In this document: positions 1 through 23,282 of the stretch, piece by piece | Layout of the letters: each line of letters begins with the position of its first letter | How positions within the stretch are numbered: position 1 is the stretch's first letter | Source: Lytechinus variegatus | Taxonomy: Eukaryota; Echinodermata; Echinoidea; Temnopleuroida; Toxopneustidae | NCBI RefSeq assembly: GCF_018143015.1 | Contig: NC_054758.1 | Location: forward strand, 9,780,501 to 9,844,500 | Length of the DNA: 64,000 nt | Direction: 5' to 3' | The notes under the pieces: model-generated | What the model was told of the DNA's origin: nothing | Database searches by the model: none | What the model saw: only the letters and a program-made list of their open reading frames with translations | Made by a program: the position numbers and the translations under genes

Positions 1-819
1 ATTCTATTCCGAGGCGCACAAAATTCGAATGACGAAATGATCGCATCACTCCACAGAGCAAAATTGCAACAATTGTCAACAACGAGGGTCATATATTGTA
101 TGGCATAAGAAGATGGATGGTTTTCAATATTCATATTTGTAGATCAATACAACCCTGGAAAAGATTATTAGACAAGGAAGTGTTAAGTTCATTGATAGAA
201 CTTTCAGACGATTTCTAATAGCTAACTCATGGTTAGAGGATGACTACTCTAAGAAAACAATTACCGTCTGCATTGCTCAGACAATTACACCAAGGGTAAT
301 TACCCCTAGGACAAATATCCCCAGGAAACCCCCCCCCCCCGAACGACAATTACACCCCAGAAGATAGATAATTTAGAATAAGTGACAAATCATAAATGTT
401 CTAAAAGGTAATTGACCCAGGGATATTTTCACATTAAATTTGCATAGTTATCCAATTGAAACAAATCAAGTTACTTTTAAGCATAAAAGTAAAAAACTTT
501 AAAATGCCAAGACCTACGCTTGAGTAGACCTTGGACTTGGTTCTTGCTCATTTCTATAGAGTGAGCCATTCTCAGCCTCAAGCTAAACAATAACTGGAAT
601 ACTGGAATTGGAAAAAAAAGCAGAAGTAAAGTAAAATCAAAACCTTTTTGAATTGTGGTTGTTGGAACTCATGTTTATGTAAATTAGATCTAAGTCTATG
701 CAATACACTTGAGGGATTCCAATTTCCAGCAAAAATATTTTGATAAATTTTCTGGAGCAATCTACATTGAAATTGGAAAAGCAATGAGTGGTAGGTAACT
801 TCATATCTACTCAAGATAC
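1..819. other. No gene recognised
   Basis: AT-rich sequence with a short poly-C run near 330-340. Only chance-length reading frames are present. It may be an intron or upstream flank of the SET gene, because the first SET exon seen at 2560 needs coding sequence before it. I found no exon that supplies it. Confidence 0.5.
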
Positions 820-823
820 ATTT

Positions 824-2431
824 GGGTCATTCCATCTGGATTCACCCAATGGGTTTTCCTTACCGTCTCAGAATTTGCTCAAATTTGGCATACATAAAAT
901 TTACATTTACTTAATCCCAAGAACCCCCCCAAAAATAATGTAAACGGTCCATTGGTTTTTGCACTATGGCCTGCCCTTTTTGTTTTGTTTTGGTAAAAAT
1001 GGGTGTGACCTTCAACATTCAACGGCACATTGCGCCTGAACCGGTCGACCAATTTTTATGAAACTAGTACCATTCAATAGGAAATTCAAATTTCAAAGAG
1101 GAATTCAAAAATGGTATCAAAACTTATTTGAGTAAAAGTGGTATGGCCTGAATCTGAATCTGTGAAGTTCCTGGTCCTGATCCTCAAGTGGATATTGATG
1201 ACCAATAAGAACGCTAGCGATCGAGAGAGCTCATTATTTTCAGTACATTTTGGAGTTGAGTTCCACCACTTTACAATTGGCTGGAGGGACTATAGTAATT
1301 ATTCCTCTCATGACAGTATCCCACAGTTTATTTGGGATACTGTCATGAAAGGAATAATTACTATAGTCCCTCCAGCCAATTGTAAAGTGGTGGAACTCAA
1401 CTCCAAAATGTACTGAAAATAATGAGCTCTCTCGATCGCTAGCGTTCTTATTGGTCATCAATATCCACTTGAGGATCAGGACCAGGAACTTCACAGATTC
1501 AGATTCAGGTCATAGCACTTTAAATTACCCCTTGACCTTTGCTTTGACCTTGATTTTGACCCCCGGCCGAATAATTTTTTAACTTGAATTTTATGTAAGT
1601 TAATCGTCAATATAATATCAACATAATATGTAAAGATCTAGGATGATATTTTATTTCTTCATCTAAAAAGCTCTTTTAAATCATATTTACAAATTTACTG
1701 TTGGCCCCACATATTGATATTGGTGTTAATGTGTGTACAAGTCTCCATTATACATGAATACTCCCAAACTAAAATTACATTGAAATCAAATAAAAAAGGG
1801 AAACTCAACCTATCAGGTATTACAGGAAACATTAAACAAAATGAATAATATATGTAGACTATATTTGCTTAGCCCTTTTGATTGGGGTGCAATTGGCCTA
1901 CATACAACTCACAAGAAAGCTGTAGTTTTGACGGAAATAACAATGAGTGTGCTTCCTAGTCAGCTCTACTGTCCCATACTAGATATACCCTACAGATCTT
2001 TGAAGTATCAACATGAGATATGTACAATTGCTGATGTGGTTTACGCTCTCTACGATGTAGTATTTTAATTGATTGTAATGTAACTTTAGTTTGAAAGTAT
2101 TCATGTATCATTGAGACTTGTACACACATTACCAACACCAATATCAATATGTAGGGCCAACAGTAAATTTGTAAATATCATTTAAAATAAAAATTGGTCA
2201 ACCGGTTCAGGCGCAATGTGCCGTTGAAAGTTGAAGGTCACTCCCCTTTTTGCCAAAACAAAACAAAAAGGGCGGGCCAGGGCTCAAAAACCGATGGGCC
2301 GTTTCAACTAATTTTTTTTTTGTTTCATGGAAAGCAAATGTTAAATTTTATGTGTGTCGAATTTGAACAAATTCTGAGAGGGTAAGGTCCAAAATGGCAC
2401 TTTTATTGGGTGAATTGGCATGGAATGACCC
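824..2431. mobile_element. Nested foldback (long-inverted-repeat) DNA transposon, non-autonomous
   Basis: The ends are inverted copies: GGGTCATTCCA at 824 and its complement ending at 2431. The outer arms match imperfectly over roughly 220-240 bases (824 to about 1060 against about 2190 to 2431). A second inverted pair lies inside (about 1689-1783 against 2077-2172), and a near-perfect palindrome occupies 1140-1513. ATTT flanks both ends (820-823 and 2432-2435) and is a possible 4-bp target duplication. No transposase frame is visible. It lies just upstream of the first SET exon, so it is probably intronic. The superfamily is unknown to me. Confidence 0.75.
1140..1513. repeat. Large near-perfect palindrome
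   Basis: Two arms of about 180 bases read as reverse complements around a short centre near 1320-1335. The open frames predicted on both strands here are mirror images of each other and encode the same peptide, so they reflect the palindrome and not genes. It sits inside the 824-2431 foldback element. The very low divergence between arms suggests recent formation or gene conversion. Confidence 0.85.
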
Positions 2432-2559
2432 ATTTCAGGAATCTTACCCGCGCCCATCCCCATTATCTTAATGCTTGCCTATAAATCGATCAAAAGGCAT
2501 CAAACTCTTATTAATAAAGTCATATTTAATCTTTTGGAATTAACATTTCTCATCATCAG

Positions 2560-2713
2560 GTCGTGGTGTAGTTGCTACAAGGGATATTACAAGAGGTGAA
2601 TTTATAGCTGAATATGAAGGGCATCTGATTACAGAAGAAGAACTTGAAAGAAGGGAAGAACAAATAGAAAGTGTCTTCAGATATGAATTCACCTGGAAAG
2701 GAAAGAAACTATG
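2560..2713 (+). CDS. SET-domain exon 1 (KMT5A/SETD8-like, N-terminal part)
   Basis: The exon follows a CAG acceptor at 2557-2559 and ends at a GTAGGT donor. Its frame opens with GRGVVATRDITRGEFIAEYEG, the typical start of a SET domain; the GRG motif belongs to the S-adenosylmethionine pocket in this family. The remainder (two Glu-rich helices, then FRYEFTWKGKKL) resembles the KMT5A/Pr-Set7 lysine methyltransferase more than the larger SET families. It enters with two bases of a split Gly codon and leaves in phase 2 (TG, completed as Cys by the next exon). The preceding coding exon was not found. Confidence 0.8.
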
Positions 2714-3367
2714 GTAGGTTTCATAGCAGACCCAATCTTACATATCTGGAAGTAATATACTATCCAACATGTTTTGCTCAGTTCTCACTATCACATTGTA
2801 GCTCACATGAGTTAAAAGCTTAAGGTACCAAGTATGGTATTAATTGCCAAAATGGAGGGGGTAGAAGCATGGCCCAAAACAATCACTTATGATGTTCAAA
2901 ACCCTAATAAACCATATATTTGTGGAACGCCGAGTTACTAAGCTATCCAAAAATTTGACGTTTTACAATCTTGGACCTTTTATATGCTAATTAGCTAATT
3001 TTTCCCCAAAAATTGTAAAAAATGAGGTTTTCAAAATGTGAATTATAAATTGTAACCTCCTACATCATTTATGCTATGTGAATTCTATCTTTTTTATTGG
3101 GTTATGGGCTGTGAAATCTTCGAATTTACGCGGAATTCCAATTTTTTCCCTCAAACACCAATCTACATTTTCCACGTTTTTTTTTTCCTTCCCGGATCGA
3201 GATCCGAAAGTCGGAAATGCGCGCTTCAGGAAAGCGGTAAACTTCAGTTCTCAGCTCAGGCATTATTGTCCCGATAGCTAGAAAAGCATATATACTTCGC
3301 ACTAAAGTTAGCGAGTATTCTTGCGTCAGAAAAACCACCAAAATTTACCCTTGCAAGCTACACAAAA

Positions 3368-3532
3368 AACAGCGCATTCGTAGGGAAGGCGGAAGGCCAT
3401 CAATAGTACATGCACGTTGATGTTAGTGCATACACACAGCGAAAGACGAAAACAGCGCATTCGCGTATAGGTGGGAGGCCATTCATAGTACACGCATGTT
3501 GATGTTAGTGCATACACAGCGCTATGGTGCAA
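3368..3532 (+). repeat. Two tandem copies of an ~83-bp unit
   Basis: The words ACAGCGCATTCG, AGGCCAT and GTTGATGTTAGTGCATACAC recur in the same order at 3368-3449 and 3450-3530. The copies have diverged slightly. It lies in the intron between SET exons 1 and 2. Confidence 0.7.
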
Positions 3533-3804
3533 GTGCACTTTTTTTGTCGCTAGCGAAATATGCAAATATACATTTTTGTTCAATAACGCTTATATATTTT
3601 TTGTAATACAAGGGGACATCAAAATGAAAAGAAATGTAAACAAAAATAAAACAGCATCTCATTCAAAATCAATATTAGGAATACTTTGAAGGGTTGCTTG
3701 TGCTTCCATCTGCACTCTATTTAATTTATATCCTGACTATAATCACATACAGTCACATAAACACCAAGGTATTTTGCTACATATAAAATAGATCTGTATA
3801 TTGT

Positions 3805-4930
3805 CTCGCATAGCAGAGCGAGACTATAGGCGCCGCTTTTCCGACGGCGGCAGCGACGGTGTCAACAATGAAATCTTAACCAAGGTTAAGGTTTTGAAAT
3901 GTCATCATAACTTAGGAAGTATATGGACCTAGTTCATGAAACTTGGACATAAGGGTAACCAACTATTACTGATCATCCTGCATTATTTTCATGTCACATT
4001 ATAAAGGTCAAAGGTCATCTAGGGTCAATGAACTTTGGCCATGTTTGGGAAATCAGCATTGAAATCTTAACCAAGGTTAAGTTTTTGAAATGTCATCATA
4101 ACTTCAGAAGTATGTAAACCTAGTTCATGAAACTTGGACATAAGGGTAACCAAGTATCACTGATCATCCTGCGTGAGTTTCCAGGTCACATGATCAAGGT
4201 CAAAGGTCATTTAGGGTCAACGAACTTAGAATATGCACAATTTTTTTTGAAATTTCATCATAACTTGGGAAGTATATGGACCTAGTTCATGAAACTTGGA
4301 CATAAGGGTAACCAAGTATCACTGATCATCCTGCGTGAGTTTCCAGGTCACATGATCAAGGTCAAAGGTCATTAAGGGTCAACGAACTTAGAATAATCCT
4401 TAGTTTATGTTTTAAATGTCCTCATAACTTGGGTAGTATGGACCTAGTTCATGAAACTTGGACATAAGGGTAACCAAGTATCACTGATCATCCTGCGTGA
4501 GTTTCCAGGTCACATGATCAAGGTCAAAGGTCATTAAGGGTCAACGAACTTAGAATAATCCTTAGTTTATTTTTTAAATGTCCTCATAACTTGGGTAGTA
4601 TGGACCTAGTTCATGAAACTTGGACAGAAGGGTAACCAAGTATCACTGATCATCTTGCATGAGTTTCCTGGTCACATGATCTAGGTCAAAGGTCATCTAG
4701 GGTCAATGAACCTGAACCATGGGTAAGCTTTTTTGGGGGGAAATATACTTTAAAAGTATAAGGGCCTATTTCATGAAACTTGGACAAAAGACTACGAAGT
4801 ATTGCTGTTAATTTTGTATGAGTGGCAGGCCACATGTTCAACGTGAAAGATCATTTAGTGTTAATGAACTTTGACCATCAAAGTCAGCACTGCTGCTATA
4901 TTGAATTGCGTAATGCAGGCGAGACTGCCA
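3805..4930 (+). repeat. Dispersed repeat element with 162-bp internal units carrying DR1 sites (copy 1)
   Basis: One end is a small hairpin, GTCTCGC...GCGAGAC at about 3803-3825, followed by a GC-rich GGCGCCGCTTTTCCGACGG stretch. The body holds tandem units containing CATGAAACTTGGACATAAGG and AGGTCAAAGGTCA. That 13-mer starts at 4005, 4197, 4359, 4521 and 4683, the last four at 162-base steps. The other end contains CCAGAGGCGTTCCACTTG near 4930-4950. Related copies lie inverted at 55437-57232 and 62920-63530. The family name is unknown to me. It lies in a SET-gene intron. Confidence 0.8.
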
Positions 4931-5053
4931 GAGGCGTTCCACTTGTTTGCACAAATTTATTTGTGCTCATAAGTTTTAGATATTATTTCAATTTATATCT
5001 GACTGAATGGTTCAAGTCATTAATTATTTTCCTTCTTATTCATTCAAATACAG

Positions 5054-5185
5054 CATCGATGCAAGTGAGGAGAATTCAAGGCTTGGGAGGCTTCTGAACC
5101 ATGCAGAAACAAATGCTGAGAGGAACTGCAGGGTGAAGGTCATAGCAATTCAAAATGTGCCTCATTTGTGCATATTTAGCATAAG
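5054..5185 (+). CDS. SET-domain exon 2 (RLGRLLNHA motif)
   Basis: Flanked by a TACAG acceptor and a GTTAGT donor. The frame reads C-IDASEENSRLGRLLNHAE and ends near PHLCIFSI. In KMT5A the matching strand reads CVDATKETNRLGRLINHS, so the Asn-His of the cofactor and catalytic site is retained, with Ala instead of Ser after it. It joins exon 1 by completing a Cys codon and leaves in phase 2. The 5-kb region upstream is an intron holding a repeat with nuclear-receptor sites. Confidence 0.82.
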
Positions 5186-5666
5186 GTTAGTAGTAGAAGA
5201 CCAGGAATGTATATAGATAATATGTATTTTACAGACCTCCCAACCATTAGGAATTTGGCATAAAGAATATTAATTTTAGGCCATTCTGAGAGAGTTTTGT
5301 GACCATTTTGAAAGAGATCTCCTATTCGATATTGTACCACACAGTTCTTTTTCAGTTTCATGAGTTGAGAGGTCTGTACGTAGTTCATCTTAACCTTCAT
5401 TTTTTCATTTGTATTTATTTCTTAAAACTTAATACGAAGTCTGGCAAATGAGACAGGACAGGTCAATGTGATCACAGAAAGGCTAAAGGAAACAACATGA
5501 AGAGCTAACCCCAGTCATTTGTTGTTAAGCATGCTACTGGAAAACCATTTACATTGGATTGAATGTTTACACATTGAAAGTGCTATTCTTTATACATCCT
5601 GAGATATTTTTTTAATGAATGTTGAAGTAGAACGTTATTTTGTCCTTAAATTTTAAAGCGGTTTAA

Positions 5667-6523
5667 CCCTTTGTGCGCTGATTTGATTTTCAGTGAATAA
5701 TGATGACGATTGTTGATTTGGTATTTACCTTAAATCTTGAATGCCTTTTCCCTTGGTTCAAACTAGCACTTATGTACTATATGTTCCTTAACCCGTACAC
5801 TGCTAAGGGCCAGAAAAGTGGCCCAATGACCAATTTTCATGTTTTTCTTTAATTGAGGATTAATTAGGGCAACTAAACTATGCTTAAATGATGAAACATA
5901 TTTAATTTGAAGATATAAACAATAAAAATATGAAATTGGATGATTATGTTAAATTTTATAACAAAAATAAGGCTAATAAAAATGGCAAAATTTTGCAAAA
6001 TACGGCAAAATTATGCACATGTGGGACTACGCGGAAATTCATGGCTTATGACGCAAATATTTTAAAAACTTAATGAAATAAAACAATAAAACTTTCAGTT
6101 TTAGGTTCCTATGATATCATTCTACAAGATTAGGTCATAAATTGAGATAACTAAATTTGTTTGAATATGGAAAATATTAATAATTCATATAATAATTTGA
6201 AAATATGACTTTTTCAATGATAAATTTTCATCTTGAAATGTCCTCAAAATTACGAAAAAACTCTTCAAAACTATTTGAAAATCAAAATTCAATATATTAC
6301 GAATTAATATGATTATTAATTCAATATATAAATATGAAAATCATATTTTTGCTGAATATTTCAAAATTATGGGCTCTAGAATTCCTAAAAAAACTAAAAA
6401 ACCCCTCAGCAGAAAAATTAATTGCCAGCTTCTCAAAAGAAATATGACAGAGTGAACTAATTATTACAATTGTTCAATCTAATTGTACGAATGTGCAAAA
6501 TTGACTCATCAGCGCTCAAAGGG
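5667..6523. mobile_element. piggyBac-like non-autonomous element
   Basis: TTAA at 5663-5666 and 6524-6527 flanks inverted ends CCCTTTGTGCGCTGA and its near-complement ending AAAGGG. TTAA targets with CCC-starting termini are characteristic of piggyBac elements. The interior is AT-rich with no transposase. A second TTAACCC word occurs internally near 5790, hinting at a nested or rearranged copy. It lies in the intron between SET exons 2 and 3. Confidence 0.7.
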
Positions 6524-7169
6524 TTAATGGATAAGACGGTAGTTTTGGAACAATTGTAGTACATTATTGTCTTATTTTACTGCATATAATTTATTGAAAA
6601 ATGTGTTATTTTTTTCTCAGATTCAACTGAAGAGCGAGAATCATCACAATTATAATCTCTTCAATTTACATTATTACCTTGCCCTTGAGTTTTACGGGTT
6701 AGAATGTTGAGTTCTATAGGGAAACATGAGAGTGTACATGATAAGAATTGTATGCTTTGAAATCAATTCCTATATCACCAAATTCTTTCTTCTTGAGTTT
6801 GTGTTAATATGAGAGGAAGGTAGTCTTAGTCTTCCATGGACTAGTCCTGTCTACTTTTATCAATCGTTGCCTTATAGCAGATTCACATGCTTGACAAAGC
6901 AAAATTTATTTCCAGAACCGTTTGTTGCTAAAATGTAAACATTTTTAAAAATAGATGATAATAAATCATGAATAAAATATAATATTTGACTAGTTACTTG
7001 ATGATTTATTGTTTAGGATATTATTACTGGAAATAATGAAAATAGACATAGAGTTTTTTCCCCCCTCCCCCCCCCCAAAAAAAAAAATTACTACCGGACT
7101 TTAGCAACCAATACCTGTATCTGAGTATATCGATCGAAAAAGTTGTGTCTTTAGATTTTTAGAAATTAT

Positions 7170-7540
7170 GACTATTTACCTGTATCTTGGCACAAGTCCT
7201 ATCTGATTTGATTCAGTGATCACAAAGAAATAACATTTTTTGCAGCAAATTTCCCAAGTCATCTTGGAAAAGATTATAAATGTGCTCATGATGCTATAAT
7301 ATTGAAACTGGCGACAACAGACAACAACATTTATGAAACAATAGCAGCAACTTTCATTATCACCATCTGCAGTCAAACACGAGAAGTTGAATTGATTATT
7401 ACATGTATGCTTAACAGGCCTCATTCTTTAAAAAAAAGGTGGACTAAAGAGAATTTGCACATTTGCTGCAAATACCTGCATTTATTTGTGATCACTGAAA
7501 CAAATAGAATGGGACTTTCTCAAAGATACAGGTAAAAAAT
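7170..7540. repeat. Imperfect inverted repeat (hairpin MITE-like)
   Basis: Arms of about 75 bases, 7176-7255 and 7464-7537, read as imperfect reverse complements. Both contain the palindromic core GTGATCAC and end at TTACCTGTATCTT or its complement. No target duplication was resolved. Both arms carry short frames encoding similar peptides, explained by the inversion. It lies in the intron before SET exon 3. Confidence 0.65.
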
Positions 7541-8248
7541 CATATTTTTATAAACTGAAACCAAATCTATATTCAATGAGAATTTGAAAAGTTATTGGTT
7601 TCCAAAGTGACAAGTCCTATGGTAATTTTTTTTTTTTTTTAATCAATTGACAAACTGCAATTTGGATGTCATGGTTACTCATTTAAATGAAAATCAATGG
7701 AATGATCGCTCTCCCAAAGTAAAGTGGGAGATAGTAATTAGGAGCTGAGTTTTCAATACTCTTGATATTTTTATGTAAAAAAATATTATTGTATGATTGC
7801 TATAATTTCTAATGTAAGTCAAGATAGATGGAATTTCCAATTAGTCAAGTAGAGTTTCAAAGCAAGCTCTTGATTTTCTTTGATATGTGAAACACTTTAT
7901 GCACAGATAGAAATGTTTGTAAGGTGCCAACTTTTTAAAACACTGCTGATAAATGGTTTAGTCTGAGCAATTCTAAACTTCAGCACCCGTAGAAGAAGCA
8001 AAGATTTGATATATTACCGGTACTGTAAAAGCTGAAATTTTTGCTGTGGTTTACTAAAATTTGCTTAAATTTTCCCTCATAAGAATAAGATTTGTGTACA
8101 AGGATCTTTCAAAACATGAAAGTTACTTTTTATTAGAGGGTATCAAAAAATCTTTATAGTAATTTTATGACAAATTATATTTTGTGTCACGGATGGACAA
8201 ATTGCAAACACTTAACTGATCACACTGGACTGTTTCCTTTTTCAACAG

Positions 8249-8318
8249 CCAAGTTCTATGTGGCACAGAGCTTTTGTATGATTATGGATTTAAAAAGGGG
8301 GAGGAACCATGGAAACAG
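8249..8318 (+). CDS. SET-domain exon 3 (ELLYDYG catalytic Tyr motif)
   Basis: Flanked by a pyrimidine-rich tract plus CAACAG, and a GTAAAT donor. The split codon gives Ser, then QVLCGTELLYDYGFKKGEE. ELLYDYG is the C-terminal SET motif that supplies the catalytic tyrosine, and the wording is close to KMT5A. No post-SET cysteine cluster follows, as in KMT5A. The exon ends in phase 0 after PWKQ, which fits the phase of the next large exon. Without that exon the protein would lack an obvious stop codon soon after SET. Confidence 0.82.
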
Positions 8319-9785
8319 GTAAATATGTACATGAAGCTACTTGTAAATTATGTGTATTTTTGTCTTGTCTAGTATTTTTTCTCTTAACCCTATGCCCTAG
8401 CAGCTCCTTTTATCTCCATTTCCCACCGTTTCCAACAACTGCCAGCTCCAAACAAACAAAAAATAAGTTGAAGACTGCTTATGGTAAAAATTTTGAGGTT
8501 CATTTTTGTTTTTAATTGCTAACCCAGCAGAAAAACAAAATTTAATTTTCATTTTCTCTGTAATGTGTTTTGTATTTGTATTTATTTTCCATATATATAC
8601 AATTAAATGACAATGTATGGCTGGATTGCCCTGCTCAGCTGCACCTACATGATGCAGCTTTTCTGCAGAGGGTTCCAGGAGCATAAAGTTATAAGATACA
8701 AAACAATATTATTCACAAAAGAACAATGAAATTGAGAAATGAAATTGTTTTAAGACAATTTACACATGTACATAAGAATGTGGAACCAAGCAGCAAAATT
8801 CTATAAAAAAGTAAACCCAACCTTAAAGGTCAAGAAAAGTTTTGGTAAAAGTGAATATTTTCTTCTCCAAAATTTGTCTTCAAATCTAAATGAAATAATG
8901 ATAATAGCATGCATATAGTGCACAAAAAATGGTGTGAAAAATAAATGAGTTTTGGTCAAGCTATTACCTACATGTAAAATGTGTTTAAGATATACAGTTT
9001 TGGGGGACCCGAGTTTTAACCGAAATATTCTTTCTTGATAAAGAACACCTTCTCATGCTCAAAAGTGGATGAAAATTTCAGAATTCAATTTTTGTGTATA
9101 CCTTTTTATCATTCTGTGGTCAAATCTCGAAAACAATCTAGCATACGCCCAATAATAAACATCATATTACTGTTATCGAGAGAGGGCGCTAAATACAATT
9201 TAACGGTCAAATTCAAATTTTCAAAAGGAGTCAATACATAAAAATTATGCTATGGTCTCCAAATGCTTGTATTATGTCATGATAAACATCCCGTATAATT
9301 CTCATTTTGAAATCTTTACCAAAATTATATTTGGGCTTTAAACGTAAAGATTAGTTTCGGGAGAGATGGCGCTTCAGATATTTAATTACTTTGTGAGCTG
9401 CAGCAAAACTATCCACATGCATCATACAGTTTTTCCACAATAGATATATGTTCATAGTTTGTTTAAATAAAAATTGACCTAGAAATGGCTGAATTATTGC
9501 AAAACAAAAAACAAAACAAAAAAACGGAGCAGGTCGTTTTTTTCGAACAGTGCACTGTCCACACACAAAATCAATGTGAATTCAAATCACCTGTACATAC
9601 AACCAGGAACTCTCTGTGCACGCCCCGCTGATTCGCGGGGCAGAATATTGTAAGCGCAAACAGCACAACACAGCAGTCAAATATTTCCAGATTTTTTATT
9701 TTTAATTCATGTGTAAGTGATATTTGTCTACATAATAACAACCATAATATCGTTGTTTTTATACTCCATTTATACCTACCAACCA
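8319..9785 (+). other. Intron between SET exon 3 and the repeat-bearing exon
   Basis: AT-rich sequence with no convincing coding exon. It runs from the GTAAAT donor at 8319 into the minisatellite. The sequence just before the array (ATACTCCATTTATACC) is only weakly pyrimidine-rich. An AG at 9788-9789 would give a phase-0 acceptor to the out-of-frame part of the array. Confidence 0.5.
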
Positions 9786-11262
9786 AAAGCTGGCATCAAG
9801 TACTCGAGAGTCTCCCACCATCCAAGTGCTGGCATCAAGTACTCGAGAGTCTCCCACCAACAAAGAGCTGGCATCAAGTACTAGAGAGTCTCCCACCAAC
9901 AAAGAGCTGGCATCAAGTACTAGAGAATCTCCCACCAACAAAGAGCTGGCATCAAGTACTCGAGAGTCTCCCACCAACAAAGAGCTGGCATTAACTACTC
10001 GAGAGTCTCCCACCGACCAAGCGCTGGCATCAAGTATTCGAGAGTCTCCCAAAAACAAAGAGCTGGCATCAAGTACTCGAGAGTCTCCCACCAACAAAGA
10101 GCTGGCATCAAGGACTAGAGTCTCCCCCCAACAAAGAGCTGGCATCAAGTACTCGAGAGTCTCCCACCAACAAAGAGCTGGCATCAAGTACTCGAGAGTC
10201 TCCCACCAACAAAGAGCTGGCATCAAGTACTCGAGAGTCTCCCACCAACAAAGAGCTGGCATCAAGTACTAGAGAGTCTCCCACCAACAAAGAGCTGGCA
10301 TCAAGTACTCGAGAGTCTCCCACCAACAAAGAGCTGGCATTAACTACTCGAGAGTCTCCCACCGACCAAGCGCTGGCATCAAGTATTCGAGAGTCTCCCA
10401 CCAACAAAGAGCTGGCATCAAGTACTCAAGAGTCTCCCACCAACAAAGAGCTGGCATCAAGGACTAGAGAGTCTCCCACCAACAAAGAGCTGGCATCAAG
10501 TACTCGAGAGTCTCCCCCCAACCAAGCGCTGGCATCAAGTACTCGAGAGTCTCCCACCAACAAACAGCTGGCATCAAGTACTCGAGAGTCTCCCACCAAC
10601 AAAGAGCTGGCATCAAGTACTCGAGAGTCTCCCCCCAACCAAGCGCTGGCATCAAGTACTCGAGAGTCTCCCACCAACAAAGAGCTGGCATCAAGAACTA
10701 GAGAGTCTCCCACCTACCAAGCGCTGGCATCAAGTATTCGAGAGTCTCCCACCAACAAAGGGCTGGCATCAAGTACTCGAGAGTCTCCCACCAACAAAGG
10801 GCTGGCATCAAGTACTCGAGAGTCTCCCACCAACAAAGAGCTGGCATCAAGTACTCGAGAGTCTCCCACCGACCAAGCGCTGGCATCAAGTACTCGAGAG
10901 TCTCCCACCAACAAAGAGCTGGCATCAAGGACTAGAGAGTCTCCCACCAACAAAGAGCTGGCATCAAGGACTAGAGAGTCTCCCACCGACCAAGCGCTGG
11001 CATCAAGTGTTCGAGAGTCTCCCACCAACAAAGGGCTGGCATCAAGTACTCGAGAGTCTCCCATCAACAAAGGGCTGGCATCAAGTACTCGAGAGTCTCC
11101 CACCAACAAAAAGCTGGCATCAAGTACTCAAGAGTCTCCCACCGACCAAGCGCTGGCATCAAGTATTCGAGAGTCTCCCACCAACAAAGAGCTGGCATCA
11201 AGTACTCGAGAGTCTCCCACTAACAAAGAGCTGGCATCAAGTAAAAAACAGTCGCCTACTGA
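9786..11262 (+). repeat. 39-bp coding minisatellite, about 37 units (13-aa LASSTRESPTNKE)
   Basis: Tandem units of exactly 39 bases, so the array keeps frame. The consensus peptide is LASSTRESPTNKE, with variants TDQA, PNQA, KNKE, RTRES and SIRES. The rare word containing TTAACT recurs at 9987 and 10336, close to nine units apart, showing a higher-order block. One unit near 10111-10120 has lost two bases, so units before it are out of frame with those after. All later units are in frame with the downstream recombinase exon. The reverse strand is also open throughout, simply because the unit has no stop in several frames. Confidence 0.92.
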
Positions 11263-13322
11263 CCAAAAGGTGGCATCAAGTACATTGCAGTCACCTATCC
11301 AATGTAGCTCAGTATCCGACTCATCAAGCAGTTCTGAGTCTGCTTCTGATTCAGGTGATGAGTGGGCTCCTTTAGATAGAATCCCTGAAACAGATGAATC
11401 AGATTATGATAGTGATGATGAACCCATTCCTTGTAAGAGAAAATTCAGAGATTACAACAACAACAACAAAAAAAAAGTTTTGCAGATATCGCAAGCCGAA
11501 AACAAGTTATTTGATTTGAAACCCATCAAAACAGAAGACCGTCACCATACTCTTTTCCCGAGTAATCAGATCAGAACATCAGATCATGGAAATCAGCCAT
11601 CAGAGAAGAAAGATGAGCACAAAGTGACTAATCATGCAAGAACAAATAAGCAAACAAGATACAGGAAACCACATAGGTATTGTATCTTTTGTGGGCAGAT
11701 GTTTTCTAAACTATCTGATCACATACAAAAGAAGCATGGAGATCACGAGCGAGTGAAAATTGCAATGCAACTACCCAAGAAGCATAGAGTTGCGGAGATA
11801 AGAAAGATGAGGAAAGAAGGAATCCTACTTCAAAATAAACTCGAGGCCAAGAAGGAATCTCCTGCCTACAAGAGGGAGCGCTTGTCAAAAAAAGGTTCAG
11901 AGCCTGTAATGTGTGCGATATGCACTGGATTTTTTGCAAGAACGTACATTACCAGACACATGCGAAAGTGTGCAAAGGAAAGTGAGTCCGCAATTCATGG
12001 AGCTGGCTTGCCTGTCAGCATGCTTAGGCATGAGGAAATCTTAGCTCAAGATACTGATTTTGTTACAAACATAGTATCAAGATTTCGAAAGGGCAACCGA
12101 TCCAGCCAACTTTGCACAACGGATCCTGTCTTGTTGAAAATTGGTAGAAGGCTGTGGATGAAAGAGAAGAGAAAACAAAGTAAACACGCAGAAGTAAGAA
12201 AATCTGTAATGTCGGATATGAGACGACTGGCAAATTTGTATTTGCACATGAAAGAGAGTGAGCAAACCCTTGGGAAATTACCTACAGATGATGGGAATAT
12301 TGCAGATTTATTTAAACGAAATAATTTCGGCCATCTTGAGGAAGCCATTAACACATGCACAACAGTTGAAGATTCAGACTCACTTAAAGATGGAAGATCA
12401 CTGAAAGCTGGCCTCAAGCTGGGATTGTACTATCTATTGAAGGCATCTAGCAAGATCTTGAAAGGCTTGTATCTGATCGAAGATGATGACGAGGGTGATA
12501 TGAAAGCACGAGAGATTGATAAGTTTGTTTCCGTATTAGAGCTCAATTACAACATGATCTTTGGAGATGCCATGTATGCCCTCCAGCAAGGCAGACAGGA
12601 AAAACTTAGGAGACCAGAGTCAGCTCCAAATGACGATGATATTCGTAGAGTTCGAGACTACACTGCTGCTCAAATCAAACAGCTTGTCAGTGAAAGATAT
12701 GCCTTCCCAGATTTACATCTTTATACGAGCCTACGTAACAATGTAACTTGCAGACTCACTTTATTCAACGCTAGAAGGGGTGGGGAGCCCAGCCGGTTGT
12801 TACTGAAAGAGTGGGAAGATGCTGACAAAGGTGCTTGGCTAGACAAGTGCCAGATTGGTGGTTTGGATGAAATAGACAAGGCACTGGCCAGCAAGCTGAA
12901 GATTGCCTACCAAAGTGGAAAGGGAGTGAAGCATTTGGTATCAGTCCTCTTTCCTGAAGACACTCATGAAGCGATGCATATCCTTGCTGATGAAGAGATT
13001 AGGCGGGAGGTTGGAATATCTCCCACAAACCGTTTCATGTTTCCAAGTACAGGGGCTTCTAATGACCACGTATCTGGCTGGCATGCCGTCAATAGCGTTT
13101 GTCAACAACTCAAACTGACAGAACCAGAAAACATGACGGCAACCAAAAATCGACACAGAGTGAGCACAATTTTCTCACTGATGGATGTCCCTGAAATGGA
13201 TAGGGGTTACATATACAAGCATCTTGGTCATTCAGAGGAAACGAATAAGAATATCTACCAAGCCCCATTGGCAGTAAAAGCTCTGACTGTTGTTGGACGG
13301 CGCCTGATGGACATTGATGAAG
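10121..13322 (+). CDS. Large exon: 13-aa repeats, zinc-finger-like modules and tyrosine-recombinase core
   Basis: The frame is open from the minisatellite to 13345, and a GTGAGT donor at 13323 ends the exon in phase 1. The acceptor is uncertain: any repeat unit offers an AG before a Leu codon in phase 0, and the one at 10567 (CAACAAACAG) is a fair choice. Numbering from the codon at 11270: an acidic Ser-rich stretch at 14-60; C138-x2-C141-x9-H151-x4-H156; C215-x2-C218-x11-H230-x3-C234; then a helical region. The C-terminal part has the tyrosine-recombinase boxes: Arg I in NARRGGEPS (502/503), Arg II in NRHRVST (628), His in HLGHS (654) and Tyr 663 nine residues later. That H-to-Y spacing matches phage integrases and Cryptons. 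A Thr replaces the usual first His of the HxxR box. No ATG occurs before residue 144, so this is not a first exon. Confidence 0.78.
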
Positions 13323-13906
13323 GTGAGTTGCAGATGTTTTTTTCATAATTGTCTATTTTTCATTTTAATTGATGAAATGAATTAAAAATGTACTTTTTGT
13401 GACTCTTATGTCACCGACAATATCCATAAAAAAACAAGATAAATAATAAAGTCGAAAAAACAAAAAAAATACATAAGAAATTGAAAAAAACAATAAAATA
13501 CATAAGAAATTAATTTTGATAGCAATTTTTTGTCATGATTATTTGTCTGCAACATTACAAGGAGTATCTAGACCAAAAACCAGCACATTTGGAGCTTCAG
13601 TAAGTGATTTATTTCTGTTTATTAGAATTCATGCATAATTATGCATAATTAATGCTTATTTAGCCTAATGAATAGATTTTTGAAAAATTTACACAATCTA
13701 AGAGTTAACATCACAGGCTATGTGCATGCCAAATTTCGGCGCGCTTGCGCGATCAACGATGGACTGAAGTGATTGAAATATCCCAATAGGATTAGGGTTA
13801 ATATTCTGCCATCCTCATCCTATTACTAGAAAAATCCTAGAAAAATCTGTCTATATGATTGTTATGTCTCATTTGTAGCTCTGTATTTCTGTATTGGTCA
13901 TTTCAG

Positions 13907-14020
13907 CCGGATCATCTGTTGGTGTACCAACCCTTGGACCTCTTTCTCCTCCTAGAGTCCCACAGAGTCCCACTAAGGAACGCCTTGATCCTCAAAATTC
14001 ATCACGATGTAATGATGGAG
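13907..14020 (+). CDS. Ser/Pro/Gly linker exon, copy 1
   Basis: Flanked by TTTCAG and a GTACTA donor, 114 bases, phase 1 in and out. Joined to the previous exon it reads AGSSVGVPTLGPLSPPRVPQ and then a Pro/Ser/Lys-rich stretch. It is clearly related to the exon at 14562, implying tandem exon duplication. A second frame (PDHLLVYQPLDLF) is also open in both copies. I prefer the Ser/Pro/Gly frame because it matches the phases of the neighbours. Function is unknown; it is probably a flexible linker. Confidence 0.55.
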
Positions 14021-14084
14021 GTACTATATGTTTTTTTTTCACTTCAATTAGACATGTGCTAGAACCCTAAAGAAATTTCCAAGC

Positions 14085-14290
14085 TTGCGGGAAGCGTGCG
14101 ACTAGCTTGCGCAAGCTTGCGGCATGCTAGTAACTAGCATGCGGCTAGCTTAATAAGCGTGTGATATGCGTGCAGAGTAATAGTTAAGCGATCTTTTAGC
14201 GAGCAGGGACTGTTCGCTAGCATGCACTCGCTTATTAAGCGAGCGCCCTGCTAGTCGCATGCTGGTTACTAGCAAGCGGCACGCTTAAAT
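14085..14290. repeat. Hairpin-rich GC block
   Basis: Words such as GCTAGTAAC, AGCATGCG and CTTGCGCAAGC appear in both orientations, so the left half pairs imperfectly with the right half. It stands out from the AT-rich intron around it and lies between the two linker exons. It is probably a short MITE; the ends are not resolved. Confidence 0.5.
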
Positions 14291-14561
14291 TTCGGTAGGG
14301 GTAATCATCTTAAAATATTCACTTTTTAGAACCTCCTGCACATTCAGTAAATTTCATTTTGGTATGAGAAGTATAAAGGTATTAGCAATTGATGTTCTTA
14401 CATCGTCATCATAATATACCTAAGTTTGTTTTTTACATTTTCTTGGAATAAATGTGTTTTTATGATTTATAAGTCTCAGTCAGAATCTGTTATAAATGGC
14501 ATTAAGTGAATTACCTGCAATGTGAAAATATAACTTTCTGTTTCTGTATTGTTTATTTCAG

Positions 14562-14657
14562 CTGGATCATCTGGTGGTGTATCAGCCCCTGGACCTCTTT
14601 GTCCTAGGAAAAATCCTACCCTGGTACCCCTCAATCGTCAGGAAGATTCATCAAGAG
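14562..14657 (+). CDS. Ser/Pro/Gly linker exon, copy 2
   Basis: Flanked by TATTTCAG and a GTACTG donor, 96 bases, phase 1 in and out. It reads AGSSGGVSAPGPLCPRKNPT and ends QEDSSRG. The first 40 bases are close to the exon at 13907. Because both are symmetrical phase-1 exons, either could be skipped without breaking the frame, so alternative splicing is possible. Confidence 0.55.
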
Positions 14658-14831
14658 GTACTGCATATTAAAACAATCCCTGTATATCAATAGTGTAACT
14701 AATTGTTTACTAGTTTATTCCTCCTTGTGCTAAAGAAAAAATATGTTTTAGAGACATTGATCTTTAATACAGTTTAATTTGCAATGAATAAACATGGATG
14801 TATGAATTTCTGTATGTTTTGTTTATTACAG

Positions 14832-14909
14832 GTCTCCCTGCAGTGTCCAGTCCTTCTAATCAGGATTCTCTCTGTCCTTTTATGAAATTGTTGATTATAT
14901 ATTTATTTG
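14832..14909 (+). CDS. Possible small linker exon
   Basis: A TTATTACAG acceptor is followed by a phase-1 frame reading GLPAVSSPSNQDSLCP, similar in composition to the two preceding linker exons. The only phase-compatible donor I see nearby is GTACAA after 14909, which would add an odd hydrophobic stretch (MKLLIIYLF). It is a candidate exon or an alternative 3' end; skipping it keeps the frame. Confidence 0.3.
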
Positions 14910-15505
14910 GTACAACTTGCTGTAACAGTTTTCTTTGTCCCTGCTATACTGACATCAAAGAAATGTCAGGGAAATTTATAATTGGCCCAAAATATCAAAA
15001 ATATCAAAATAACATCTATAGGATAAAATGCTATGACCCTTTGATAGTGTAATCTCTTTGACTGCAGTACAAGTCTTTTGTACTGCAAATAGTTAACTTC
15101 AACATATAGAAAACATTTATAGCTGGAAATGAGGTTGAAATAACTATTATTGAATTTTTAAGACTTCATCACAGATCGTCTTTTTGAAATGCTGGGAGCC
15201 CTAACTGGCAATTATTCACATGCAGATTTTATTTCTTGTCATTGAATTGATGTGATGTGAATTAACTTACCAGGAATGTAGCACCTTAAACACACCAATT
15301 CTTGAGTGAGGTTATCGAGCCTCTGATTGTGTGAAAGACCATTAATAATTCCCCATTCGCCAAAATAGAGTTTGTGTGTATATACATTCTCCTGAAACAT
15401 GACTACTAATCCCATGCTTTCTATTTTGAAGTTATCTTGATATTCCAAAAAACAATAGTCTATGAATATTCTTCATTGTCTATAATTATTCTCTCAACAT
15501 TTTAG

Positions 15506-15598
15506 AACGGAGGTACACGAGATGGGAGTCTGGGGAAACGGCTCAACTAAAAGAGTTCTTCAAAGAATACTTCACATCAACTCAAACAAAACTTCCAT
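15506..15598 (+). CDS. C-terminal domain exon (RRYTRW...)
   Basis: The acceptor is CTCTCAACATTTTAG and the donor GTAAGT; phase 1 in and out. With the carried G it reads ERRYTRWESGETAQLKEFFK and ends QTKLP. The Arg-rich start, conserved Trp and amphipathic helix recall the C-terminal tail of recombinase-like zinc-finger proteins that I recall from fish, and loosely a SANT-like helix. That comparison is from memory of the family and unverified. The exon lies directly before a TA-flanked transposon in the next intron. Confidence 0.65.
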
Positions 15599-15629
15599 GT
15601 AAGTTTGACTATCTGCTATATTTTAAATA

Positions 15630-16180
15630 TGTGACCCTGCATCTCAAAACAACCATCATACCCATCAAAATAATGAAAAGAAAGTACCCATTCTAAAAAA
15701 AGTATTTACTTAGAAAAGGGGCTTTGAAGTTTGGGGTCTATTCAAATGCAAAATCTCAACCAGGGGCGCTCCGTGCGGTGCATGGGACAAAAAGCAGAAT
15801 ACAAATCTCCACAGCAATCACTGTGAAGGTATTATTAAATTAAGCTGAAATTTGACACACTCATTACAAACAGTCTAGTTATGCTTATTCTCAACTTTCG
15901 ATGCAATAGCATCATCCTTTTAAAAGTTATCAAGAGTTTGAAAGTGAAGAGGATATAAAAGAATTTCAAGAATGAAAAGGGAACTCTACCCCCTAAAGAC
16001 AAAGTGTGCTAGAAAAACTGCAGTAAAGACATATTTCCTGTTTGTTTTATGATCCAAGAAGAATTGCTCTTTCAGAAAATATGTAGAAAAATAAATTGAC
16101 ATATTTTGGTCCTATATTTTTGGTCCTTGTGTAAAATCGGTTTGTGCAACTTTTTGTTGGTTTTGAGATACGCGGTCACA
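15630..16180. mobile_element. TA-flanked non-autonomous DNA transposon (Tc1/mariner-like)
   Basis: The inverted ends start TGTGACC and continue with a TCTCAAAAC block shared by the two termini. TA dinucleotides at 15628-15629 and 16181-16182 fit the TA target duplication of the Tc1/mariner group. No transposase frame was seen. It lies in the intron between the two C-terminal exons of the SET/recombinase gene. Confidence 0.65.
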
Positions 16181-17119
16181 TATGATCTACACAAACATTG
16201 ACAAACTACTAGGTGTTTGAAAACACTGATCATGTAATTTTCAGGTTTGAAATATAATTACTAGACAAATGCAGTTTGAATGTGACCCTTGTCTTTTTTT
16301 TTTGCCTCTGCCACACTGTTATGTTTTTGGGCCATCTGTCATACTGACCATTTAGGATAATAATACATTAAAAATATTGAGTTTCCCCTGACCTTGTCTG
16401 TTTTGGCTTTTTTTTCTGTAAATATTCTCATTACAACTTATAGGTCATTTTGTAGTTTGAAGCGGTATTTGTTTTTTCACCGAGTACTCCGGTATTTAAA
16501 AAGGGGAATACCAGATACACCGATTTTCGGAAATTACCCCCCCCCCCCATATCAATCATATTCTCACAGCCAATCTTCAAAATCTCCTTGATATTATCAG
16601 GGAGATCAATTGAGTTTTCACTTGATTCTATCAAGCCCAGTCTTTAGATGCAGTTACCAGTTATTTTGTCTTCTTAATCTGGATAAATGAGACTGAATTA
16701 TGAATGCCTCATGTAGTACAGATGCTTCCTTTTGTTATGTGACTTTTTACACATAAAAAGGATCAGCAAAAGTGGAAAAGCGGAAAAAGGGGCAAAAAGT
16801 ATTCCCTGAGGATTTGTCATACTGCTAGTAGTCTATTTTGCTAAGTCGTATGCATCATTCAGAGAAGAGGTTTCCACGGGTGTTCGTATCATTCTTTTTC
16901 TCATGTGAATACCATGCATACTTTTATAACGTGTTGGTACATCTAACAACTTGAGAGAATCAAGTTAGACCTCACTGAATCTCCCTGATATTATCGGGGA
17001 GTTTTTTAGATCAGGTGCTTCTCACCTGTTAACTTATTTTAAATTTATGGCAATCTATGCTATATCTATCTTTATTGATAGTAATTGCAATAACTTCAAT
17101 GTCACTTTGATTTCAACAG

Positions 17120-17262
17120 CAAGAGCAGAAATTAGAAAATTCAAAATGAGATTTCCAGCCTTCAGACATGATGTAAGGACCATAGCAACCAAGGTCATGA
17201 ACGAGGTGCGGAAGACCGAACGACTGACAGAGGAAAGAGTCAAACGACTTGGGATAAGTTAA
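17120..17262 (+). CDS. Terminal exon with stop codon
   Basis: The acceptor is GATTTCAACAG. The split codon gives Ser, then RAEIRKFKMRFPAFRHDVRT and so on to KRLGIS and a TAA stop. The peptide is basic and predicted helical, ending the SET/recombinase-like protein. Phase matches the donor at 15599. A polyadenylation signal follows about 86 bases after the stop. Confidence 0.68.
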
Positions 17263-17347
17263 TGAGGTGATGGGCTAACAGGTTAATCGGGACATTTCTG
17301 GTAACATTAACATGCATCTTTTAGGATAGATTCAGGATTGTGCTTAG

Positions 17348-17353
17348 AATAAA
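17348..17353 (+). terminator. Polyadenylation signal AATAAA
   Basis: AATAAA lies about 86 bases past the TAA of the last exon, within AATAAAATAAAC, and is followed by TTTTGAGTGTTTT. It is a plausible 3' end for the SET/recombinase gene. The assignment rests on position only. Confidence 0.5.
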
Positions 17354-17423
17354 ATAAACTTACAGTCTTCATAAATCCCTTTTGAGTGTTTTCAACAATC
17401 CAATTAGTGAAGTCTTTCTATAT

Positions 17424-17945
17424 GAGCTCACCTGAGCCGAAGGCTTATAACTGCACAGATGCTCGTCCCTGCAAAAACTGTCGGCTCATGGGCAACAGAG
17501 CATGCGGATAGTGATTAATCACCTAAATATTAGCTGTGGGGTCATGCTTGTTATCAATTATTTTATGGTACTTTGATGAATTGTGTTAGGGTCCCTTACA
17601 ATCAAGTGGGTGGAGCATTGGAGGAGTACCCTCTCATGATCGAGCTATGAGGATTTTAAATAAAATAATGCATGCAAACATATTTTTGAAATGTGATTCA
17701 GGCAATTGCAGGGGCAGAGGTAGTTGATGTCAGATTTGCTGGCAGGATTAAGAGTACATAGGGCCCACAGGGCAACAGTTTGTTCAGGGGTGACCATTTG
17801 GTAGGCAAGTCAGAGGATCTCTCAATCAAATTTATTGATAAAATACTACTAGAGGCATAGGATTGAAAGTTGCTCAATTGAAGCATGTGGTAATTACTAA
17901 TTTGCAATTACATATGACAATTGCATGACATCAGGTGAGCACCAG
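17424..17945. mobile_element. Possible MITE with CTCACCTGA ends
   Basis: GAGCTCACCTGAG near 17424 and CATCAGGTGAGCACC near 17930 are inverted. No other arm similarity is visible and no target duplication was resolved, so this is tentative. It lies just after the 3' end of the SET/recombinase gene. Confidence 0.3.
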
Positions 17946-20900
17946 GCCCCTGGGGCTCTTATCATTTATCCCTAACTGCCCTCCTCCATAGTTTTGGCGA
18001 TTGCATCGCGACCGCTACCAATTTCAGATTCTCGCTTTATGACTTTTTCCCTTGCAGTCTTGTCTTGCACACATTTTGCAGGGACTGATTTTTAAAATTT
18101 ACAGGGGAGCTATAAATAGCTCTCCTAGAGGCTCTCAAGGAGAATTTTTAGGGGAGCTAAATTTGTTCTTCACGTAGAAAGATTGGGGTTACAAGGGGCT
18201 CTGTAAATCACTCCCCAAAAAGCATTTAAGGGGAGCTGGGAGAGCAATCGCTCTCACTCCCCTTAAATCTTACTCCCTGATTTTGATACCACATTTGTCC
18301 TTATCAGACCTACCTAAGGGGTATTATGGGCCAATTAGCAGACATGCCAACAAAAAAACGTATTCCGTACTTTTCTATCCTCTTTCGCTTCTTTAGGGGG
18401 TACTAAGATCTATAGATGTCTATGAATGCATAGCACCATCATGCCATACTGCATTGCACCTGTCTTCATAGAAAACATTTAATTGTCCAATGAATTGTCT
18501 ATGTCCCTCATTTACCAGAACGAATGCTTTTGGTGCAGGAATGAAACACTTGTGAAAATGTATGTATGTATGTTTGCTATTGAAAATAATTGAATAATAA
18601 AAGGTTTTCAGGTCGACAGGTGGAATGAGATTGATATTTTTATGATCTGAATAATTATTGACATCTAATGAGTTTGGTACCCCTTATCCAAATGTAAAAG
18701 ACAAGAATGCGCTTTTAGGTCGGCAGTACTGAATTAGTATGCGCATGTCATTAAAAAGGCTATAGCTGCATATATTTGTGTACATTTACATACATTAATA
18801 CTTTATGCAAATCTGCTGTACTCATAAAAATAGATAAGAATTGATTTATTTCACATTTGGGAAACATTAATCTTCATTATTACACAGTTTTCATGTAATT
18901 TTGTACTTGTTTAGGCTGAAATTATGAAAATATCCCCCAAATGCATAAAATACGCATTATGAATAATTCATTTCCTAATTATGCACAAAAAAATGCACAA
19001 TTAATTTTAAAAATTACACTACCAGATTCAGCATCCAGCATTCAGATTAAATTTAGCTTCTCAGCCTCACTCCAACTAGAGCATTTTACCCACTGTACAA
19101 TATATAAATACAAATATATGTTGTGCTAGTAATGTCATGCCTAGCTGATTCTAGTTCAAACTCGGAGATGTAATCATTAGTCTAGTAAGACAGATGATTG
19201 TTTGTTTGTGAAGGCAGCTTTAATTGCAAATAATTGGAATTAAGTATTTCATTGTTGATTCACCTAACTCTCAGCAGCCTTATTAAAAAGGCTGTATAAA
19301 ATTAAATCTGACTTATTGCCTACCTGAGCAAATGCCTTCTAAAGCCTCCCCTAATGTTTTGGGGGTTTACTTCTTTTTTTAATGTTGGTGCTGGGGACAA
19401 AGCAGGTATACTTGGCAGACAATCAGTGTATATATGCATAAAAATATACATGATAGCACAGGTACGTCATTTTTGTAAGTGTAAGCATGGCTGGAGTATG
19501 TTTTTTTTTATTCAATTCAGTTGACTTCTGCTCAGGAGATCAAGTGTAATGTGAAATGTACTGGAATGGATATCATTTATTTGATAAGTGCTTGTCTTAT
19601 GTTTCACTTGCTCTAGATGTGTAACAGCTACATTGTAGTTCATGTATTTGTGGAATTGGACACGAGAAGAAGAAATTCATGACATATCCTTCCCTTGTCA
19701 GCACCACCCCCTTCTCTTTCTCTCGCTGTACTAGTTTATCGAAAAATTCACCTAAAAAACTGAGAAACAAAGTTTACCTGCATAATATCGATTGCTGTGT
19801 TTATTTTTTATACAAAACAGGACAGATATCAAAATTCATGACGAACGTTGAAGAATTTTGCTGGATGTTATTACATGCATTGCTCCTTTTCATAGTATTG
19901 TATACCCATTGTATAATATACGTTTGTGTGTTTATTGTTCAAGTATGAAGTAGGAAACTTATTAATTAACAATTCATAACAAAGGTTCAACAAGTTTTTC
20001 CATTGCCATAATATGCAATGTGTTACATAAATTAACCGTTTGTCTTGGTTTAAAATATACATTTGGTATAAATATAACAATTATTAATTAATTATTAATT
20101 ATTATTTTATTATTAATTATTAATACAAAAAAATTTGCTCATAATTATAGATAAATGAAGCGCTCCGTATCGTTCATAGCATCAATACAATGCTTCCCCT
20201 TATGTCACATATGGCACTGCATGTCTAGAAATTATGAGAAATTGAAAGGAAATTTTTCAAGAACTGAGATTTGTAGTATCTGTAGTAATCTGTATGTATT
20301 TAGTACTGTGAGTTGGACATGTACAAGAGGTCGTAGTTCATGAAATGTGACATTTCAATTGTTCCTTTGCATGTTTGGTGTTTATAAGTACTTTGTGGAT
20401 AACCCAGGTTTGGTGCAGTTCATGCTTCAACTTCATTGTGAAGTTTTTACATTGTGTATGAATGGATGTTTTCACATTGTGATAGATTACTTGTTTCATT
20501 AAAATTCACTTAATCAGATGCACTTCTGTCCTCGTATGACATTTGTTGGTGTAAGTTTTTGTCTTTAATCTTGGACGCAGTCTTTTTCTTCATTTGTCTG
20601 CAGGGGGGGGGGTAATAATCATGCAGACTTCTCAATAACACTGCCTGCAGTTACTGTAAGAGAGGAGTAAGACTTAGAGTTTTAGAAACGCACGACATTG
20701 TGTTTCAGGGTGAAATGATTCTTCCATATGAAGACAAAGTTACTCTTCCAGGTATCCCCCCCTCTTGGGGGCACAATAAACGTGGCTGCCGTGCGTACAC
20801 CTTTATTATTTTTTTATTTCATTTTCTTGCGGGGACAGGGGAGGGGGCTCTCACCACAAATTTTGTAAGCTTCAAGCTTATTATCTAAATCCCACTGTCA

Positions 20901-22330
20901 AAACAGACTTTACTATTATTCATGTACAGGTATTGGTGTATGTTTGTTTTTAATATGTGTGTGTGTGGCGTGTGGGGATACATATATTAGTCTGTAAATA
21001 TATTGAAAAAGTGTTTGTGTATGTATGTTATACGTGTTTATGTAAGTGTTCTTTTTGTTTGGGGGGTGTTTATACATGCGTATAGGGGTGTGTAAGGTGG
21101 TTGGCCTATTGCTTGGTTTGGTGTAACTATGGGCATGCGTTTGAGGGAATGAGGGAAATGAGATGAATTGAATTTTTATTTATCAAACGCCTAGTGGGCA
21201 ATGACCACAATCTCATAATGTGTTTATTTGAGTGTGTGTTTGGGGGGGGGTGCACAACAACAACGTGAAATGAGCTGAGAAGAGTGTGGGTGGATTAGTT
21301 TATATGCCTATAAATGTGTTATGCCTTAAATTGGTATACCTACTTCAAGAATATAGGCGCATAATGAGTTTGTAATCAACATCCCATTGCCGTAATTAGT
21401 CTTAAAATGAATGGGCATCCACTACCCTATTGATTGTAAATTAAAAAAAAAAAAAAAAATTAAATACAGCCCCAAAACTTCAATTTTTTAAAATAATCAT
21501 GATCCATAAGTCGTGAAGACTTTTTGTGGGGGGCGGTCTTTAACCCTTTTCAGAACTTAAACTCACTTTCCCCTGACTGAACACCATCCCAAACTGGGGG
21601 GGGGGGCGGGGGTACGCCCATGCCACCCCATGATCATCCCCCAGCTTGCGCTGTAGGCTACATTACGTTGCTCAGTATTTAACCTCCTTACCGCCATGCT
21701 ATGAATCACGGTAATCCACTGATGCCCAAACCATCTATGAAAAATAATACATGCAGGTTAAAATCTTGCATTCTCACCGGTCACCCCTCCCCCCCCCCCC
21801 AAATCATGATCACTCTTGACACCGTTTTTTGCAACACATATTTTAAAAAGAAGAGTCTACCCAAAAATATTTTTTCAACAGGATCAGAAATATTAGATGA
21901 TCAGAACAAAAAAAAAGTTGAGAAAAATCGGACAACTAATAACAAATTTATGAGTGTTTAAATCATGGAGCTAAAGCTCCATGATGATAGATAGGTAGAT
22001 CCCCTATATGCATGTTTACATCAATACAAACTTTGTAGCTTACGTACTGTAGAAATGATGCATTTTGCACTATAAATATAAACAAAATTATGGTAATTAG
22101 TGCACCCACGACGTCATCAAATTGGCAACATGTCTAAAAGTTTTCACTGATTTGCCCATTTTTTTTCAAATCATTAAAAAGTCATAACTTTTTTTATTAC
22201 CTGTCCGATTTTCCCCAAACTTTTTTTCTGTATCTCTCACTTTAAGGGCTATTTTTTTTTTCTATTGCCAAAATAAACAAAGGAGCCGGTAATGGATATC
22301 CTTGTCTAACGAGTAACGCCTCTTGATGGG
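17946..22330. other. Intergenic, no gene recognised
   Basis: AT-rich DNA with GGGGAGCT/AGCTCCCC words around 18100-18270, an ATTAATT-rich tract near 20080-20125 and poly-G or poly-C runs near 20605, 21240, 21595 and 21790. Reading frames are short and have no family signature. One weak orphan-exon candidate lies at 20709-20750. Confidence 0.5.
20709..20750 (+). other. Weak orphan exon candidate
   Basis: A TTGTGTTTCAG acceptor precedes GEMILPYEDKVTLP and a possible GTATCC donor. The stretch has amino-acid-like composition, but there is no recognised family and no linked exon nearby. It may be chance. Confidence 0.15.
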
Positions 22331-22339
22331 AATACATCG

Positions 22340-23090: not shown

Positions 23091-23101
23091 TCTTATTAAT
23101 G

Positions 23102-23258: not shown

Positions 23259-23282
23259 TATAATACTCTTAAAATAATCCCC

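Follow-up and report, generated by a model that had tools for sequence, protein, structure and literature searches.

The 64,000-nucleotide window analysed here (C19:9780501-9844500, contig NC_054758.1 of the sea urchin Lytechinus variegatus) opens inside a mobile element of about 27.5 kb, which extends from about -3081 to 24,408 in window coordinates, negative positions lying upstream of the window and the left end falling at C19:9777419. The element holds one recognisable gene, for which we propose a model that combines a SET domain, a repetitive linker, zinc fingers, a tyrosine recombinase and a Myb-like C-terminal domain.

A gene model joining SET and recombinase exons

Nine exons can be joined with GT-AG borders throughout and with phases that agree at every junction (Table 1), and transcription and splicing across them would give a single protein. 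An earlier sequence-only reading of this locus had proposed SET exons, a zinc-finger and recombinase exon, and C-terminal exons running to a stop; all are present, in one gene model. Because the SET core begins in mid-codon, one upstream exon was lacking, and exon 1 can supply it. The acceptor of exon 5 is, judged by phase, most likely at 9790 in phase 0, and with this start the 39-bp array becomes a coding linker. In the window copy a frame break within the array gives a stop at codon 312; the array may be misassembled there, or a later repeat unit may provide the acceptor. The copy on C5 has an unbroken reading of 1491 amino acids to the normal stop, also through nine GT-AG exons. A further exon candidate at 14832-15052, with a good acceptor, an open frame and, by eye, an alternative C-terminus ending at 15052, was set aside, the phases of exons 7 and 8 being compatible without it.

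The joined exons 2-4 match the Pfam SET family with an E-value of 1.4e-20, and the nearest solved relative by sequence in the PDB is KMT5A/SETD8 (E 2e-23), which bears out the suggestion that the core, with its GRG, NH and ELLYDYG motifs, is KMT5A-like. Pfam assigned no family to the window recombinase or to the C-terminal domain, the latter being called Myb-like by eye. Foldseek returned no PDB match to the recombinase model at E<=0.001; with a second structure aligner only, the predicted fold aligns to tyrosine recombinases. The recombinase keeps five of the six usual catalytic positions, and in 31 aligned rows, counting those that have a residue at the position, the catalytic R is found in 30 of 31, K in 28 of 28, and the second R, H and Y in 29 of 29 each.

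Table 1. Features of the element and its gene model, in window coordinates
Feature	Position	Strand	Basis or remark
Element part within window	1..24408	+	right end ...GGTTGAATCTAGG adjoining (TA)n; common to C5 and, damaged, C1
Exon 1, MKRRKPEEVAKHYISCGQDPDWIQQKWVNKEKG	-503 to -407	+	outside window, 3 kb upstream; ends in exactly the phase needed
Exon 2, first SET exon, GRGVVATRD...KKL	2560..2713	+	alone, Pfam SET E 1.6e-7; phase fits exon 1
Exon 3, SET, IDASEENSRLGRLLNHAE...	5054..5185	+	GT-AG, phase
Exon 4, SET end TELLYDYGFKKGEEPWKQ	8249..8318	+	ends in phase 0
39-bp tandem repeat, 37.6 copies	9778..11243	+	modelled coding linker from 9790; frame break in window copy
Exon 5, repeat linker, two zinc-finger-like motifs, tyrosine recombinase	9790..13322	+	open reading frame 9995-13348; modelled splice at 13322
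Zinc-finger-like pair and recombinase, catalytic R, K, R, H, Y	11639..13322	+	residue counts, 31 aligned rows
Exon 6	13907..14020	+	GT-AG, phase
Exon 7, opening resembles exon 6	14562..14657	+	GT-AG, phase
Exon 8, start of Myb-like C-terminal domain	15506..15598	+	GT-AG, phase; region aligned in relatives
Exon 9, end of Myb-like domain and stop at 17262	17120..17262	+	GT-AG, phase
Subterminal repeat array, 54-55 bp, rich in AAGGGGAAT	23284..23991	+	motif also at both element ends
Right terminal region	24300..24410	+	inverted similarity to left terminal region
(TA)n microsatellite at right border	24409..24520	.	TA runs adjoin 12 of 12 family ends examined

Copies, ends and borders of the element

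The stretch from -3113 to 24441 recurs on C5 in four large pieces at 98-99% identity and, with gaps, on C1, mostly at 95-98% with one repeat-rich piece at 90%; the C1 copy is damaged, lacking the segment that contains exon 2 as well as part of the recombinase. The left end is common to the C19, C5 and C1 copies and the right end to C5 and C19, and beyond these ends the flanks are unlike. A 248-base query for the left end matched 21 places, spread over 10 contigs and 95-100% identical, every match starting at query base 1 or 3. Among the matches listed, a recombinase match follows three of the 21 left ends and none follows the other 18, and a match to the first SET exon lies within 17 kb after at least 17 of them (four of these partial). 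Two shorter copies without recombinase (L030 and L031) carry the same internal deletion, which joins 4329 to 13725 and removes SET exons 3-4 together with the recombinase. The right end was seen in five copies; L037, examined for it, gave no match. Between the C19 and C5 copies, with repeat arrays and gaps omitted from the counts, 77 of 20586 noncoding positions (0.37%) and 8 of 2978 coding positions (0.27%) differ. This low divergence indicates that the copies parted recently, and since coding and noncoding divergence do not differ significantly (Fisher p 0.51) there is no sign of selection between them.

The borders of the element are formed by (TA)n tracts, with TA runs of 31-65 adjoining all seven left ends examined and runs of 23-45 adjoining all five right ends. 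The run length is 33 in each of C19, C5 and C1, and this equality suggests that some of the TA tract may move together with the element. The two ends of the element resemble each other in inverted orientation; 5 of 2000 dinucleotide shuffles gave a local alignment as good. Direct AAGGGGAAT occurs 18 times in 84 kb, 17 times within the element and 15 of these at 23332-23967, and its complement is present in the right end. Joined, the two ends would read GAATCTAGG-(TA)n-TGTATCTAAATCC, in which imperfect inverted arms can be seen by eye around a TA core. Such a joint fits the usual layout of sites for tyrosine recombinases, for which PMC3212892 gives a core of 6-8 bp, the TA tracts of the element being longer.

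What, then, moves this unit? We consider it probable that it is a recently active DNA transposon of about 27.5 kb, that its one gene encodes a single SET-linker-zinc finger-tyrosine recombinase-Myb-like protein, and that the recombinase moves the element. It is unlikely, if still worth weighing, that some other transposase of the DDE type recognises the inverted ends and that the SET-recombinase gene is a passenger. TA borders with inverted ends are common among DDE transposons, so that the borders and the end similarity described above would suit such an enzyme, as would the lack of recombinase from both derivative copies examined, although recombinase-less derivatives are expected whichever enzyme is responsible. 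However, no open reading frame (ORF) of more than 120 amino acids is found in window positions 1-24000 besides the recombinase, its antisense and frames of the repeat array; the catalytic residues of the recombinase have been retained; and a second family, with a SET exon 69% identical, still has a related left end.

An Rfam scan of the window gave nothing at the gathering threshold. An inverted repeat (fold-back) at 1135-1528, in the first intron of the gene model, varies among copies. Tandem repeats of 162-163 bp at 3860-4900, in an intron of the element, belong to one family with an inverted array 50 kb off, at 55524-56098, and with repeats at several other loci examined.

Related loci in Lytechinus and relatives in other animals

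The second family occupies five places among the matches listed, with a first SET exon 65-69% identical, and in one copy examined it has a related, recognisable left end that also lies in (TA)n. On C10, at about 17.681 Mb, in a family likewise distinct from that of the window, the SET end and a repetitive linker share one uninterrupted ORF, with zinc fingers and recombinase about 1 to 3 kb beyond, the recombinase match holding three stop codons. Of the five places just mentioned with a 65-69% identical first SET exon, three have all three SET exons among the matches listed. At one of these five, C2:60364001-60374000 (L032), the three SET exons end in EPWKQ and the related left end is present; no recombinase match was found there among those listed. 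At C10:8.19 Mb the first exon is kept and the recombinase has stops, and a SET exon was not found. Taking the listed matches together, 8 of 26 recombinase loci have a same-strand SET match within 40 kb upstream; arithmetic on the counts puts the chance figure at about 0.02. The pairing took 32 of 39 recombinase rows and 38 of 50 SET rows; the rows omitted were additional pieces of places already in the list, among them pieces on the opposite strand at C3:22.1 Mb. Three of the eight pairs are copies of the window element, and those on C9 and at C1:49.74 Mb may be one family. A separate group on C2 (L029, C2:74048001-74058000, and neighbours) consists of four recombinase copies in tandem, spaced by about 5.68 kb, whose matches skip the middle-to-late recombinase (query about 460-650); no SET match was found in L029, where two of these copies lie, or within 40 kb upstream of any of them.

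Three protein searches, the second represented by the best 120 of its 126 matches and the second and third each scoring a limited set of candidates, yielded 151 different proteins among the matches listed, 24 of which have a full SET domain and a recombinase in one chain. All 24 are predicted proteins, and in all of them SET stands ahead of the recombinase; apart from P0059, they come from 16 named species, namely Strongylocentrotus purpuratus, Anneissia, Apostichopus, Mytilus, Argopecten and eleven fishes. Sea lilies, sea cucumbers and bivalves are represented here besides sea urchins and fishes. The count comprises 23 of 25 rows, two with short SET stretches being omitted, plus P0149, and the Myb-like profile is matched by 19 of the 25 rows. 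Several fusions have a linker of tandem repeats, the repeat sequence differing among species. In P0005 (Mytilus), P0036 (S. purpuratus) and P0149 (Apostichopus) the repeats between SET and zinc fingers are unrelated, the types seen being collagen-like, a 16-residue SSSPLDTSHQ-type unit and a unit of about 46 residues. The SET NH motif is ND in P0018, P0025 and P0032, from fishes, and in P0021, from S. purpuratus, so that the methyltransferase may be altered or inactive in these proteins.

A SET tree, built with 30 rows and then with 23, separates eight stand-alone KMT5A rows, the human one included, from the other 15 with support of 100/98. The order of branching within the 15 is weak, and P0125 and P0126, two of their number, are SET records that have no recombinase match; the split fits one old capture of the SET domain. 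The recombinase tree has two deep clades with SET members in both. Of 53 recombinase rows, 31 have no full SET; as many are fragments, and as the coral protein P0037 starts inside the SET tail, SET loss and missing exons are not separable here.

These data bear on whether SET and recombinase are parts of one protein. It is very unlikely, in our judgement, that the element instead carries two separate genes, one KMT5A-like and one for the recombinase, which are never spliced together. The fusion is a predicted one, and the five second-family loci have SET matches and, among those listed, no recombinase match. But the phases agree exactly across nine exons, the SET end and linker share one ORF at C10 17.681 Mb, and the fused predicted proteins of 16 species always place SET first. 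The join that the sequence-only reading had drawn between the SET exons and the large exon is supported on the same grounds.

That reading had also taken the gene for a domesticated transposon, which we regard as very unlikely for this locus. A long, intron-rich gene whose relatives are predicted genes in many animals would not be out of place in a host genome, and copies in other species could be domesticated. The Lytechinus gene, in contrast, sits in a unit with fixed ends that has multiple recent copies, one of them near-identical, a left end at 21 places and derivative forms, and its catalytic residues are kept; PMC3212892 (Kojima and Jurka) reports that the catalytic site was lost in domesticated DUF3504 genes. 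Least credible is a plain segmental duplication, in which a region with a host gene was copied and broke at TA microsatellites: TA arrays are prone to breakage and just three copies have a listed recombinase match, but the identical left border on 10 contigs, the right border in five copies and the shared deletion form speak against it.

Proposed mechanism and comparison with known systems

If the recombinase does move the element, it most likely excises and inserts it by strand exchange inside the (TA)n tracts at the ends, with transit probably as a circle. The likeliest binders of the end motifs (AAGGGGAAT and its neighbours) are the zinc fingers and the Myb-like domain, one or other of which would naturally bind AAGGGGAAT. 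For the SET domain the likeliest role is to methylate H4K20, or some other lysine, close to the element or to its target; it may mark nucleosomes at the donor or target site, or modify another protein. A broader proposal, to which we would give somewhat less than an even chance, is that this is an animal transposon family whose own histone methyltransferase has been fused to a tyrosine recombinase since before the echinoderm, mollusc and fish lineages split, that SET marks donor or target sites as part of the transposition machinery, and that the (TA)n tracts are the crossover cores. Transposons are usually on the receiving end of histone methylation. An element with a methyltransferase joined to its own recombinase, and with kin in several phyla, would, if true, be a rare mobile element that writes chromatin marks. 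L. variegatus, whose copies include recent ones, an unbroken one and many derivatives, could serve as an animal model for large recombinase-dependent transposons.

Transposons with tyrosine recombinases (Cryptons and Starships) and one SET-transposase fusion (SETMAR) are already known. No description of a SET-tyrosine recombinase fusion, or of a KMT5A-type SET fused to a recombinase within a mobile element, was found in the literature searched; Repbase and most subscription journals and bioRxiv lay outside that search, so this absence proves little. The statement that no protein of this layout has been described thus stands for that literature, but predicted, unnamed proteins with the layout are in databases.

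The element resembles KMT5A/SETD8, the H4K20 monomethyltransferase, in its SET core motifs, and differs in that stand-alone KMT5A rows form their own side of the SET tree. With Cryptons it shares a tyrosine recombinase as mobility gene, and the term Crypton-like is fair for the mechanism; as regards family membership, Pfam scans gave no DUF3504 match, the comparison set containing no Crypton sequence. A non-autonomous derivative family is known among Cryptons, and in animal Cryptons no C-terminal domain and no terminal repeats were found, according to PMC3212892. The present element, by contrast, measures about 27.5 kb, contains introns and subterminal repeats, is bordered by (TA)n, and encodes a SET domain, a repeat linker and a Myb-like C-terminus. 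A Crypton would be expected to have short terminal direct repeats and no terminal inverted ones; the flanking (TA)n of the element could act as such a direct repeat, but its ends also show inverted similarity. The giant Starship transposons of fungi are likewise large and have a tyrosine recombinase, and differ in host, size range and cargo. The arrangement also recalls SETMAR of anthropoid primates, in which, according to PMC8704517, a SET domain is fused to a mariner transposase, so that in both cases a SET methyltransferase is joined to the recombination enzyme of a mobile element. Unlike SETMAR, a domesticated gene with an inactive transposase, the Lytechinus element is multicopy and combines a KMT5A-type SET domain with a tyrosine recombinase that retains most of its catalytic residues.

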